Shown here in pieces: positions 6,706-14,024 of a DNA stretch of 64,000 nt. Source of the stretch: Fimbriimonadaceae bacterium (GTDB lineage Bacteria > Armatimonadota > Fimbriimonadia > Fimbriimonadales > Fimbriimonadaceae); contig CP075364.1 of NCBI GenBank assembly GCA_019454105.1, forward strand, positions 1,553,362-1,617,361. Direction: 5' to 3'. Under the pieces are notes generated by a model. The model worked only from the letters and a program-made list of their open reading frames with translations, was not told where the DNA came from and made no database searches. Every line of letters begins with the position of its first letter. The first letter of the stretch is position 1. A program made the position numbers and the translations under genes.

Positions 6706-7497
6706 TCAGGCTTTACGCGAGCGATTCCGGCGCCGGGCGAACCACGCCAAAGCTCCAAACCCGAGCAGGACCGAAGGCTCGGGCACCGGGTTGCCGAAGC
6801 TCGCGTCGTACCAGCCGCGGACTTTGGTGTCGCCGATCAGCGTCGCCTTTTGATTGTCAAGGTCGAGCGAGTACAGGTTGCCAAGGCCGTCCAGGCCATA
6901 AAACTTGCTCCCGTCGTACGCCATCCCCTCGATGTCGGCCTTCGTCCCCTGCAAGACGCCGAGCTCGGTCGCCCCGCCTGTGTAGCCGCTCTTGGTGACC
7001 ATCTGGGCTCCGGCCTGAGAGCCGAGCGTCCAAAAATCGTCTCCCGCCATCGCGAAAGCTTTGGGCCTGCCGACCGGTGGGCGGGTCGTCTTGATCGGTC
7101 CTCGGGCGAGCGAGGTGAACACGAAGCCAGCCTCGTCCTCATCGGTGGCCGCCAAGAGGCCCGCGCCTTCGTCAGGGTCTTTTCCAAAGTCCAGATCGTC
7201 CGTCCGGACGCTCGATAGCGTGTAAAGGACTCCGCTCAGGCGGCCCGTGACAAGATCTTCGACCCGGAGCAGCTCGCTCTTGGAGTTGGTGACGAAGACT
7301 GAACCCTGGTCGGAAGAGCTGTCGTCGGGCCAAATCGCTAGACCGAACACCTCCTCGTCGAGCGTCGCCATCTTCGTCGCGACAGCGGTGCCGACGTCGA
7401 TGCTGTAGAGCCCTTTGTCGGCGGCTACGGCGTACAGAGTCTGGGCTTGAGAGGCGGCGGCCATCCCGAGCGCGGTCGTCTTCAAGAATGTCCTCAT
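6706..7497 (-). CDS. PEP-CTERM exported protein (WD/YVTN-like propeller)
   Basis: The start chosen is the ATG at 7497 with a strong GGAGGGG site nine bases before it; the longer frame to 7602 enters the Rhs remnant. A short signal peptide (MRTFLKTTALGMAAASQAQ) precedes repeated blocks such as GLYSIDV, LAIWPDD, GMAYDGSKFYGLDGLGNLYSLD, which resemble beta-propeller blades. The C-terminus is a standard PEP-CTERM sorting signal: VPEP, a hydrophobic stretch and RRRNRSRK. Such proteins are exported and then processed by an exosortase, which was not seen in this window. An Rhs-derived segment begins about 45 bases upstream of the ATG, so this gene's original promoter may have been displaced. Confidence 0.8.
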   Translation of the reverse strand: MRTFLKTTALGMAAASQAQTLYAVAADKGLYSIDVGTAVATKMATLDEEVFGLAIWPDDSSSDQGSVFVTNSKSELLRVEDLVTGRLSGVLYTLSSVRTDDLDFGKDPDEGAGLLAATDEDEAGFVFTSLARGPIKTTRPPVGRPKAFAMAGDDFWTLGSQAGAQMVTKSGYTGGATELGVLQGTKADIEGMAYDGSKFYGLDGLGNLYSLDLDNQKATLIGDTKVRGWYDASFGNPVPEPSVLLGFGALAWFARRRNRSRKA

Positions 7498-7544
7498 CGT
7501 TTGAGTCCCCTCCGAGACTTCAGTTATACAGCAAAAAGCCGGGG

Positions 7545-7675
7545 CCGCCACCTGGGCCGACCCCCGCACCGGCAAGTCGCTGGACCGCAACCCGGCCCTC
7601 AACGCCTACCGCCCGGTCCACATCGGCGACGCCATGATCGGGCTCGAGGCCGGGGTCGTCAACGCGCTGTGGAAG
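7545..7675 (+). repeat. 131-bp direct repeat in Rhs remnant, left copy
   Basis: Nearly identical to 8082-8212, encoding ATWADPRTGKSLDRN onward to VVNALWK in the same frame. It differs by a few substitutions, such as GCCATG against GCCATC. Sequence diverges at both edges, as expected for a recombination product. Confidence 0.9.
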
Positions 7676-10151: not shown

Positions 10152-11246
10152 ATGATGCGACACATGTTGCTTTTCGTCGCCCTGGTCGTCTCAGCATTCG
10201 CGACTGCTGCGATCTCGGCTTGGGTTCCGGCTCAGGGAGAGGGCGTCCCGCTCTACTTTTCCGGGACGAAGGCGATTGCCTCAGGCGGGACCGCTACGAA
10301 CGTAGGCATCTTGGTGTCGATGAGGCTCTATCTGAACGAACATCAGGTCGCATCCTGGGACTATGATGGCGGGCCTCATGTTGTGTTCCAAGGTGGCCTC
10401 CGTGTCATGTTCGACAGTAGCCACTTCCCCGACCAAAGTTGGGTCACTGTAAGAATGTGGGCTAAGAACAGCCTCAACGAGGTTGCCGAGGCCACTCGCC
10501 AGGTTCGAGTGAAGAACCAGTGCACGGGGATCAACCTGCCAGAGTTCTTGACGACCCCGGGGGGCAACGGGGCCTGGGAGCTTTCACAACAAATGGCAGG
10601 CTCCAATTACCATCAAGTCACGTTCATCAGCCCCGGATGGAACAGGGACACGTGCTGGGAGGCCATGCGGAATCCTTCCGTTTATTACATCGCCAGCCAC
10701 GGGTACGGAGAGTCCCATGAGACTTCGATAGAAGATCCTCAGAATCCCGGCAGTCCGGAGCTTGTCCTCTGGCAAGATTACGAATACTTTAGGTCGTGGC
10801 ACAACGACCCAGGGCTCCCGCCTTTCAACGTATGCGAGAACCCGCCGGTCACCTTCGCCTACATCGACGCATGTCATTGCGGGAGGTCCAACGCCTTCGG
10901 TTCGCTCCTCTACCCGTACTATGACGGATACGGCAACTTCGTGAAGGATCAGGCAGTGCTCACTTGGAACGGCAAGGGACTTGTGAAATCCACACAAAAT
11001 GGAGTTTACTGGTATTTTCATCGCTTGCTTGCCATGGACACAATCTTCTCCGCCAGGGACTACATGCTTGAATTCATGCCTGATAGCACCAAGAAGGTCT
11101 ACATGAAACTAGACCACTTCCCATGGCAAAGGCTTGTCAATGGCCGTGGAGATATGCCGATCTGGGGTGATCCTCATACTCGGATCAAGGGTGTCTATAC
11201 GGGAAACCCATTTCGCGCGCCAGCAGGGTGGTACCGACCACTTTAG
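10152..11246 (+). CDS. Secreted caspase/CHAT-like (clan CD) putative cysteine peptidase
   Basis: The start chosen is the ATG at 10152, after GAGGG and directly before the signal peptide MMRHMLLFVALVVSAFA. The 364-residue protein has two blocks that resemble the catalytic dyad of clan CD enzymes: a hydrophobic strand ending in SHG (VYYIASHGYGE, about residue 180) and one ending in DAC (VTFAYIDACHCGRS, about residue 240). An N-terminal beta-rich domain precedes them (about 25-140). The closest pattern is caspase, gingipain or CHAT folds; no specific family is claimed. A partner gene follows after 52 bases. The catalytic half recurs in broken form at 12462-12774, so the gene was duplicated together with its neighbour. 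Confidence 0.6.
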   Translation: MMRHMLLFVALVVSAFATAAISAWVPAQGEGVPLYFSGTKAIASGGTATNVGILVSMRLYLNEHQVASWDYDGGPHVVFQGGLRVMFDSSHFPDQSWVTVRMWAKNSLNEVAEATRQVRVKNQCTGINLPEFLTTPGGNGAWELSQQMAGSNYHQVTFISPGWNRDTCWEAMRNPSVYYIASHGYGESHETSIEDPQNPGSPELVLWQDYEYFRSWHNDPGLPPFNVCENPPVTFAYIDACHCGRSNAFGSLLYPYYDGYGNFVKDQAVLTWNGKGLVKSTQNGVYWYFHRLLAMDTIFSARDYMLEFMPDSTKKVYMKLDHFPWQRLVNGRGDMPIWGDPHTRIKGVYTGNPFRAPAGWYRPL

Positions 11247-11298
11247 CACTGCAACTTGTTTAGTTTGAATGAGCATCCGTGACTAGGAGCACTGAACG

Positions 11299-12447
11299 AT
11301 GAAACGCAACTATTCGATCGTCATAGCGAACACCATCTCTGCGTTCCTCCTGTCATCCTTGGCCCTTGGACAGCAAAACATGACTGAGAGTGAGGCTCGG
11401 CGAATTGCTTCAGGCTTCGTTCTTCACTTCGGGATCCAAAGCGAAGAAGCACAAATGAAAGCAAGTATTTTGGAAAGCTCGCCTCTCGATAGGCGCCTGT
11501 GGGTCGTGGAGGATCGTGATCAGCATTGGCGAATTGGCATCGACGATCGCACCCGACTGGTCAGGAGCTTTAGTGACTTGAAGGCTTCACATGATCTGCT
11601 TGAACGAGCACCTACCCTACGACAGAATCGTGTCATCAAGTCACCCGAACAGGCTTGGCAAACTGGCGAGAGTCTGTGGAAACACTGCCACCTTGACAAC
11701 CCGTCGTTCACGAGGGGCGAAGCCATCCTATCCGCCGACGAGCCCGGGGCGAACCAAGATCGTGCAAACCGAGCCGACGTGTACGCTCTGAGGTGGATTG
11801 AGACCGTGCCCGAGTGCGAGGGATGGGTGAACGAGCGTCATATGACGCTTGATGTCGTGACGGGCAAAGTGCTCCGATTGCGGGCTGAGCGGGACCTGCT
11901 GTACATGCCCCCGCGGCACCGATTGTCCAGAGAAGAGGCTCTACGATGTTTGAAGGCTGTATGGAACGATGAGAGCCGAAGGTTCCTCTCCCGTGGTGGA
12001 CGACGCGAACACGATCCTTTCGTATGGCCCGGGGACGAGTCCGTTCGACACGCCATGGTCTTAGGAGTCTCGGAATCTTCGCCGAGCCCAGACCACTCCG
12101 AAGCGACGCAGAGGCACGAACGGGGGGAGGTTCGCATGGCTTGGGGCTTCAATAACGGACAAGCTGCAATTTTGATAGACGCAGAGACTGGTGGGGTGTT
12201 AGCCGTATCCTTATCGAAGTCCGGGTACCCTGGTAAATCCAGTCAAGCTATCAGACAAGGCGAAGACGAAGCACCGATCGGATTAAACGTTCATCCCAAC
12301 GGATGGGCGGATATCGGTCGATCCGACACGGGACCAACTCATCCGATCTCTCCAGGGAATTCAAACTGGCCAATGGCAGGAGCCACGTTCGTCATCGCAA
12401 TTGGAGTTCTTGGCTACGTTCTTGTGGCTCGTGCGAGCAAGCACTAA
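11299..12447 (+). CDS. Exported, C-terminally membrane-anchored protein, PepSY-like (paralogue A)
   Basis: 382 residues. Signal peptide (MKRNYSIVIANTISAFLLSSLALG), then an Ala-rich helix TESEARRIASGFVLHFG reminiscent of PepSY/FTP propeptide domains. A conserved block follows (LSADEPGANQDRANRADVY, then ERHMTLDVVTGKVLRLR), later ILIDAETGGVLAV, and a final transmembrane helix preceded by NWPMAG and followed by ARASKH. The repeated D-x-x-T/E-T-G-x-V/L turn is a PepSY hallmark, although I cannot prove the assignment. It lies immediately after the caspase-like gene. Because PepSY-type domains often inhibit secreted proteases, it may control that peptidase (inference). A paralogue is at 12831. Confidence 0.6.
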   Translation: MKRNYSIVIANTISAFLLSSLALGQQNMTESEARRIASGFVLHFGIQSEEAQMKASILESSPLDRRLWVVEDRDQHWRIGIDDRTRLVRSFSDLKASHDLLERAPTLRQNRVIKSPEQAWQTGESLWKHCHLDNPSFTRGEAILSADEPGANQDRANRADVYALRWIETVPECEGWVNERHMTLDVVTGKVLRLRAERDLLYMPPRHRLSREEALRCLKAVWNDESRRFLSRGGRREHDPFVWPGDESVRHAMVLGVSESSPSPDHSEATQRHERGEVRMAWGFNNGQAAILIDAETGGVLAVSLSKSGYPGKSSQAIRQGEDEAPIGLNVHPNGWADIGRSDTGPTHPISPGNSNWPMAGATFVIAIGVLGYVLVARASKH

Positions 12448-12461
12448 TGGAGTGAGGTCGA

Positions 12462-12774
12462 TTGCATCCAGGCGCCTATTCGACATCGATCAAAGACTCG
12501 GAAAATCCAACAGAACCCGAGCGTATGTTGGCCTACCACTATGAACAGTCCAGATCTTGGCACAAAAACCCAGGGTTTCCTCCACTTAACGCATCCGAGA
12601 ATCCGCTTGTCACCTTCGCCTACATCGACGCATGTCATTGCGGGAGGTCCAACGCTTTCGGTTCGCTCCTCTACCCGTACTATGACGGATACGGCAGATT
12701 CGAGAAGGATCAAGGGAGTTTATACCGGATCGAACTTGCGCGCGGCAAGCGGATGGTTCAGACAATTATGGTGA
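12462..12774 (+). pseudogene. Truncated, frameshifted second copy of the caspase-like gene
   Basis: The 5' part matches residues after the SHG block of the gene at 10152: near-identical FAYIDACHCGRSNAFGS and LLYPYYDGYG, but lacking the N-terminal half and SHG. At GGATCA (12708-12713) it jumps to sequence matching the last residues of the intact gene in another phase (IKGVYTGSNLRAASGWFRQL, then W and TGA at 12774, against IKGVYTGNPFRAPAGWYRPL). The intact copy carries GGATCA at 10946 and 11182, 236 bases apart, so a deletion between these words explains both the loss and the frame change. The plus-strand frame from 12462 to 14024 is an artefact joining this remnant to the next gene. Confidence 0.82.
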
Positions 12775-12830
12775 TCCACACGAAGAGCGCGACTACCCCT
12801 TTGCACAGCACGGTAAGAGAAACAACGAAA

Positions 12831-14024
12831 ATGAAGAGTAGGATTAACAAAGTCGCCAAATTCGCAATGGCGGCTACAATCTTTGTCACGATCTGCTGTT
12901 CTGCGAGTGGACAGGGGCGACTGAGCCGGGAAGAACTTTTTCAAGAGGCTTCCTCATTTCTAACTCATTTTGGCAAGCGGTTCGAGGCAAGTCGGGTCGA
13001 TGTTAGGGAAATGCAGGGTTCAGTCGCCGGCTACTACCAGTGGTCTCTTGAAGAGAAAGGCACTCTTGAAGAGAAAGGCACCCTTGAGGAACCCGAAATT
13101 GGGTGGGGAGTTTCGATCGACAATTTTTCTCGAAAAGTTCGAACATACTCTGACTCTGGATTGCAGAACACAATGCTAAACCGATCCAGAACCGACCGCG
13201 AAAACCGCTTGGTGAAGAGCGTCGAAGAAGCCTGGCAGATCGGCGAGGATGTTTGGGCAAAGATTGGACGGACCGACTCAGAGTTTACGGAACGCACGTC
13301 CGACCTTTCCGCCGACGAACCCGGAGCCGACCAAGACCGTGCCAATCGAGCTGACATGTACCACTTAACGTGGGCCAAAACGGTTCCTGGTTACCCCGGG
13401 TGGGTCGATGAGCGCTCCATCACACTGGACGTCGTTACTGGGCGAGTCTTGATGTTAAGGGACGCACACGGAATGAAGTACAAGGCGCCATCACGCCAGC
13501 TATCAAAGAACGAGGCCCTGCAGTATTTGCGGTCGGCGATAGTCGAAGAGAGCCGCAAGTATCTCGCCCAAAATGGACCCCCAGATCGGAACCCGTTCCT
13601 TTGGCCTGGCGACGACCAGGTTCTGCAGTCGATGGAGCTGAGAATATGGTCGGGCCTCGCCGCGCCCGAGTGGCCCGAGGGTTGGAACCGCCTTCTCAGG
13701 CGAGAGGCGAGGTTAGCATGGGTCAGTGATGTCAAGGGAAAGAGTCAGGTCACGACTTACATCGACGCCGAAACTGGCGGCACCCTCTTCGTCGGGTGGG
13801 TGAAGGGCGGTTCGGCCCTTCCATCCCCCGGTCGGCCTTCACTGGTTGATGGGCAGACCGGGGCGCGCCTTGCAAACGCCCCGGCAGAGAGCCCTCGGCC
13901 GACTCGCCATCAGCTAGAGAAGGGATCCTCTCTCGTTCCGAACTGGCCACTGGCGGGAGGTGTCATCGCCGCGTCGCTCGCCGCGCTCGCTGGCGCCTTC
14001 TGGGCCGTCTCAAGGCGGTACTGA
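12831..14024 (+). CDS. Exported, C-terminally membrane-anchored protein, PepSY-like (paralogue B)
   Basis: The start chosen is the ATG at 12831, because it opens a signal peptide (MKSRINKVAKFAMAATIFV, cleavage near SASGQG) and aligns with the start of paralogue A; the frame upstream belongs to the pseudogene. Shared blocks with A: LSADEPGADQDRANRADMY, ERSITLDVVTGRVLMLR, NPFLWPGDDQV, IDAETGGTL, and NWPLAG before the terminal membrane helix and RRY. It carries a short in-frame tandem duplication (LEEKGT twice, 13047-13082) that A lacks. Overall identity looks moderate, so the duplication is old, whereas the neighbouring peptidase remnant is nearly identical locally. Function is probably as for A. 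Confidence 0.62.
   Translation: MKSRINKVAKFAMAATIFVTICCSASGQGRLSREELFQEASSFLTHFGKRFEASRVDVREMQGSVAGYYQWSLEEKGTLEEKGTLEEPEIGWGVSIDNFSRKVRTYSDSGLQNTMLNRSRTDRENRLVKSVEEAWQIGEDVWAKIGRTDSEFTERTSDLSADEPGADQDRANRADMYHLTWAKTVPGYPGWVDERSITLDVVTGRVLMLRDAHGMKYKAPSRQLSKNEALQYLRSAIVEESRKYLAQNGPPDRNPFLWPGDDQVLQSMELRIWSGLAAPEWPEGWNRLLRREARLAWVSDVKGKSQVTTYIDAETGGTLFVGWVKGGSALPSPGRPSLVDGQTGARLANAPAESPRPTRHQLEKGSSLVPNWPLAGGVIAASLAALAGAFWAVSRRY

Follow-up and report, generated by a model that had tools for sequence, protein, structure and literature searches.

A predicted exported peptidase of the caspase/gingipain/CHAT type and a PepSY-type neighbour form a conserved two-gene module in the Armatimonadota

In the genome of a Fimbriimonadaceae bacterium (Armatimonadota; GenBank assembly GCA_019454105.1), a gene for a putative cysteine peptidase with a signal peptide (here gene A) is followed directly by a gene for a predicted exported protein with PepSY-like turns (gene B), raising the question of whether the two belong together and, if so, whether B could regulate A. 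The window analysed here comprises 64,000 nucleotides of contig CP075364.1 (positions 1,553,362 to 1,617,361, forward strand), and feature coordinates refer to this window unless otherwise indicated.

Gene A (10152..11246, + strand; 364 aa) starts at the ATG at 10152, 7-8 nt downstream of a GAGG ribosome site. Its product comprises a signal peptide, an Ig-like region (residues ~35-128) with the motifs P-x-Y-F-S-G-T ... F-D-S-S-H-F ... V-K-N, and a clan-CD region (residues ~130-364), with no propeptide region of its own. The initial annotation ascribed to this gene a signal peptide and the His-Gly and Asp/Ala-Cys blocks of clan CD peptidases, and both blocks were located: VYYIASHG contains the predicted catalytic His183 (codon 10698..10700, + strand) and FAYIDAC the predicted catalytic Cys241 (codon 10872..10874, + strand). 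Homologues lacking either residue, which would weigh against a peptidase, were not encountered, as both were invariant in a first set of 27 homologues (27/27; 19-44% identity) and in a second, more distant set of 14 (14/14), giving 41/41 sequences of mostly 20-45% identity. Only six columns are invariant in the 27-sequence alignment, where the pair is numbered His193 and Cys251: a W, the H of the HG block, the C of the DxC or xAC block, a G, a D and a Y. The Cys block reads xAC or DxC in most homologues, and HG is likewise present in most, with the G replaced in a few members (HS or HA).

The AlphaFold2 model of A has a mean pLDDT of 57.5, with residues ~90-215 near 75-87. As a plain Foldseek search with this model returned no significant match, the case for the fold rests on structural realignment and sequence profiles. 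Among the matches listed, structural alignment placed the model closest to SAVED-CHAT (Z 11.3, 167 residues, rmsd 3.4) and DdvA (Z 11.1), followed by gingipain RgpB (Z 9.9, 168 residues, rmsd 3.5) and caspases (Z 9.4 to 8.0), so that a caspase-like fold is predicted. Similarly, HHalign aligned the catalytic half of A with CHAT at 91% (E 1e-6), with the HG and Cys blocks in register, and with C25 at 72% (E 3e-5), with HG and GDPxxR in register, compared with 88% for CHAT against C25 and 0.2% for A against B, the negative control. The match to CHAT suggests distant kinship, and since both of A's alignments are about as strong as that between CHAT and C25, A appears to be about as far from each family as they are from one another. 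The curated Pfam threshold for Peptidase_C25 (PF01364) was reached neither by A, nor by its 26 relatives, nor by any protein of its own genome, and that for CHAT (PF12770) was not reached either, with 1/27 members at E 0.1; neither Pfam nor NCBIfam holds a family covering A. As it falls below both thresholds, A is filed in neither family. Clan CD is recognised by a His-Cys pair: a hydrophobic strand precedes the HG block that holds the His, and a second one precedes the Cys, often in Ala-Cys (PMC12445089). A has this pair in 41/41 sequences together with a caspase-like alpha/beta fold in a predicted model of moderate confidence, and on its modelled fold and catalytic residues it is placed in MEROPS clan CD.

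Gene B (11299..12447, + strand; 382 aa) begins with an ATG 52 bp 3' of A, preceded by an AGGAG ribosome site. Its product combines a signal peptide, three PepSY units (residues ~25-93, 105-202 and 207-306) with DVVTG and DAETG turns, and a hydrophobic C-terminal helix (residues 358-381; 12370..12441, + strand), predicted to span the membrane and followed by a basic tail, RASKH, where one would be expected on the cytoplasmic side. Three helix-plus-sheet units and the terminal helix are visible in the model (mean pLDDT 69), whose closest structural match is the C-terminal domain of YpeB (Z 14.2, rmsd 8.8 over 202 residues), followed by 4pw1, 5coz and YycH. Pfam PepSY (PF03413) matches 14/34 B homologues (best 2.3e-6) and DUF4901, the YcdB/YcdC repeat, matches 5/34; B of the window has no Pfam match itself and aligns with the PepSY-matching homologues, and NCBIfam has no name for either A or B. 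In a profile search of PDB sequences, B matched the M4 propeptide 9vy3 (3.4e-5) and the thermolysin entry 5a3y at residues 63-220 (1.4e-4). The earlier description of an exported, PepSY-like protein with a C-terminal anchor directly after A is thus borne out, and by its predicted fold B is grouped with the PepSY/YpeB-like proteins. The anchor is confined to part of the family, being present in 18/44 and 7/19 B homologues.

A second copy of the pair had been proposed at 12462-14024, with its peptidase half decayed. The second copy exists and the decay is evident, but the open reading frame 12462-14024 is not one gene, because gene B' (12831..14024, + strand; 397 aa) starts independently, with an ATG at 12831 and a signal peptide, and the preceding TTG-initiated stretch is the remnant of a second peptidase gene, A' (about 12474..12771, + strand), joined to B' by chance of frame. 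B' is intact, with a C-terminal anchor and 39% identity to B. The A' remnant is frame-broken and retains the Cys block, whereas its His block and N-terminal half are gone; one frame corresponds to residues 188-270 of A (69% identity) and a different one to residues 343-364, and its DNA is 88% identical to that of A over 161 bp around the Cys block. B' also contains a short in-frame tandem repeat, LEEKGT (13047-13090), that is not present in B. Among other features around the locus, short RHS/YD-repeat-like stretches, VYDSFGRLLEDRLA and VHDSFGRLSEDRLA, occur at two places between 7634 and 9600 and look like scattered remnants, and a PEP-CTERM protein with a DUF4394 match is encoded at 6706-7602 (- strand); the organism probably has an exosortase system. 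Just outside the window, ~13 kb from A-B, lies a conventional CHAT-domain protein in a 1054 aa frame (genome positions 1548947-1550029, - strand).

Beyond the window, A recurs intact at two further places in the genome (2.74 Mb, one contig; 46% and 40% identity). The genome as a whole also has two fragments of A and a total of six B copies. Each complete A is immediately followed by a B, while three B copies have an A that is lost or broken. The two further intact pairs, the A fragments and the extra B copies indicate that the pairing is more than chance. Across 291 Armatimonadota genomes, the A profile matched 41 (29 genera) and the B profile 71 (50 genera), with B lying just downstream of A on the same strand for 56 of the 69 A matches, and for 21/27 in genomes left out of profile building; the intervening gaps are mostly <350 bp or the genes overlap. 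One prospect raised at the outset, that homologues of A might never occur beside B, therefore did not materialise, and A-B is a real, conserved two-gene module. A collection-wide scan for A with a narrower sequence set found it in the Armatimonadota only, and a plasmid search gave no credible match. The genome represented by L076-L077 likewise belongs to the Fimbriimonadaceae, the same family as that of the window.

Most A matches without a counted B have a diverged PepSY-like neighbour. On inspection, eight of these 13 have a B-profile match in an adjoining open reading frame, two of them weak (E 0.0015 and 0.004) and two with B upstream of A as the C-terminus of a large exported protein; in a further four the downstream frame has a similar terminal turn, as judged by eye, but does not match significantly, and the last is at the end of a contig. 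The upstream arrangement occurs in two distant genomes (L081:4638-7832 and L079:4605-7499), where the exported protein is 965-1065 aa long and, in L081, carries fn3 and CBM96 domains. A frame holding the C-terminal half of A and the B array without a stop (L147:1-1362, genome G058) could be a natural fusion or reflect a lost stop, and was left out of the evidence given an internal Met with a signal-like stretch and a start at the contig end.

The dependence between A and B is one-sided, since several B matches have no recognisable A nearby, and together with the larger number of genomes with B (71 versus 41) this indicates that B also leads an existence independent of A. That orphan B genes might accompany other families of protease was rejected, as the neighbours inspected were mixed and included a sulfatase, housekeeping genes and, one gene further away, an RseP-like metalloprotease recognised by eye. 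One orphan B of the window's own genome (L049:3805-5172; genome position ~2068987) comes immediately after a gene for an HNH-type endonuclease, which by eye looks like part of a restriction-modification locus. An all-against-all comparison of neighbouring open reading frames brought up no third family recurring with A-B, only common genes such as those for prepilin-type proteins and ABC ATPases, and promoter and terminator scans were at background. Tandem arrays of diverged A-B pairs were found at L051, L052, L055 and L066. Paralogous pairs tend to diverge together within a genome, with the observed correlation reached by 53/2000 within-genome shuffles, which fits, albeit weakly, a physical partnership; the B paralogues are usually less similar to each other than the matching A proteins.

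Known systems offer partial parallels. Like gingipains (Peptidase_C25), A is predicted to be exported and to have the His-Cys fold, with the HG block and a near-C-terminal GDPxxR motif aligning between them. Unlike gingipains, it has an N-terminal Ig-like domain and no propeptide in cis, the PepSY partner being a separate gene. Gingipains are under propeptide control, their propeptides inhibiting their own enzymes with, for RgpB, a Ki of 12 nM (PMC3677877). CHAT proteases, including SAVED-CHAT, provide the best fold match and the best profile match, but the CHAT proteins compared are mostly in long frames, whereas A is predicted to be exported, has the Ig-like domain and falls below the Pfam CHAT threshold. 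The PepSY fold of B and its profile matches to solved M4 propeptides recall the thermolysin-type proteases, though M4 propeptides act in cis on a zinc protease, while B is a free protein encoded beside a cysteine-peptidase gene. The arrangement of the pair is reminiscent of SleB-YpeB of Bacillus spores, where a conserved operon encodes an exported enzyme together with a multi-PepSY partner that is anchored, and where YpeB is thought to hold SleB inactive (PMC13393411). However, SleB is a lytic transglycosylase and A a clan-CD-like protein, and YpeB is anchored near its N-terminus, with the signal sequence before the C-terminal PepSY domains (PMC13393411), in contrast to the C-terminal anchor of B. 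A-B may be counted among the exported enzymes that have a propeptide-like partner dedicated to them. The suggestion that no system of this form had been described agrees with a literature search, outside of which many subscription papers lay, that found no published description of a clan-CD or CHAT-domain peptidase paired with a free PepSY protein.

The simplest reading is that B acts in trans as a propeptide, as A has none of its own and B, with a propeptide fold and an anchor, lies behind it in an apparent operon. A would be an exported His-Cys endopeptidase of caspase/gingipain/CHAT fold, co-encoded with B as its cognate partner. Held in the membrane by its C-terminal helix in the window's branch, B would bind A in the periplasm or at the cell surface, aid its folding and keep it silent and tethered, and A would be released once B is removed or cleaved. 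Overall, we judge the chances to be slightly in favour of B being such a detached propeptide, whether inhibitor, foldase or tether, acting on the predicted exported peptidase, and B probably controls when A cuts. Several observations pull the other way: B is commoner than A, three B copies in the window's own genome have an A that is lost or broken, the anchor occurs in part of the B family, the A model has low mean confidence, and plain Foldseek found no significant match. The notion of a secreted peptidase with its own anchored regulator thus holds in outline for the window's branch but not for the whole family, given the anchor counts above and the frequency of B without A, and regulation of A by B is the inferred part of it.

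In M4 proteases, propeptides of the PepSY type are credited with both folding and inhibition, and B might accordingly be mainly a foldase, secretion chaperone or tether, with inhibition secondary or absent, such that A without B would be misfolded rather than unleashed. This is unlikely, though it would accord with A rarely lacking a PepSY-like neighbour and with B surviving the loss of A; the present data do not separate folding from inhibition, and the orphan B proteins have no known client. A rather improbable alternative is that the pair forms a signalling or processing module in which A cleaves B as its substrate or sensor and so passes a signal across the envelope. CHAT-type proteases cut specific partners, the best fold matches of A include the anti-sigma factor DdvA, and in one genome a PepSY protein is in frame with an ECF-type sigma factor. 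YpeB, moreover, undergoes proteolysis in the course of germination, and its partner may thereby be released (PMC13393411). The sigma link is nevertheless a single locus, and a third gene family recurring beside A-B is lacking. That locus (L095:3028-4554, genome G115) is one open frame encoding an ECF-type sigma factor (Sigma70 r2 and r4), a hydrophobic helix and a PepSY array, and is possibly a sigma/PepSY envelope sensor.

It is improbable that the cell secretes A as a protease for nutrition or competition, with B providing immunity to the producer and the tandem, fast-diverging copies reflecting an arms race. The arrays of diverged pairs, the usually lower similarity among B paralogues and the persistence of B after loss of A at several loci, as for orphan immunity genes, are in keeping with such a role, but fast divergence of B may reflect weak constraint only, and no dedicated delivery signal was found beyond the signal peptide. 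A catalytically dead, adhesin-like A that keeps only the fold could draw on the HS and HA variants of the HG block, yet is very improbable given that neither the His nor the Cys varies across 41 diverged sequences.

PepSY domains are widespread and, to our knowledge, most free-standing ones have no known client. The conserved adjacency described here connects a large number of them with a single enzyme family, making the role of PepSY as a protease regulator in trans directly testable outside the M4 proteases. In addition, the caspase/gingipain/CHAT superfamily gains with A an unannotated, predicted exported family, from a phylum that has received little study and in which some genomes encode several diverged A-B pairs. 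These may, as a tentative and somewhat less than even prospect, amount to a secreted proteolytic system that spans the phylum in multiple copies, with a new clan-CD family governed in trans by a free, sometimes anchored PepSY array and with pairs duplicating and diverging together, equipping a cell with several private peptidase/regulator pairs of different specificities.
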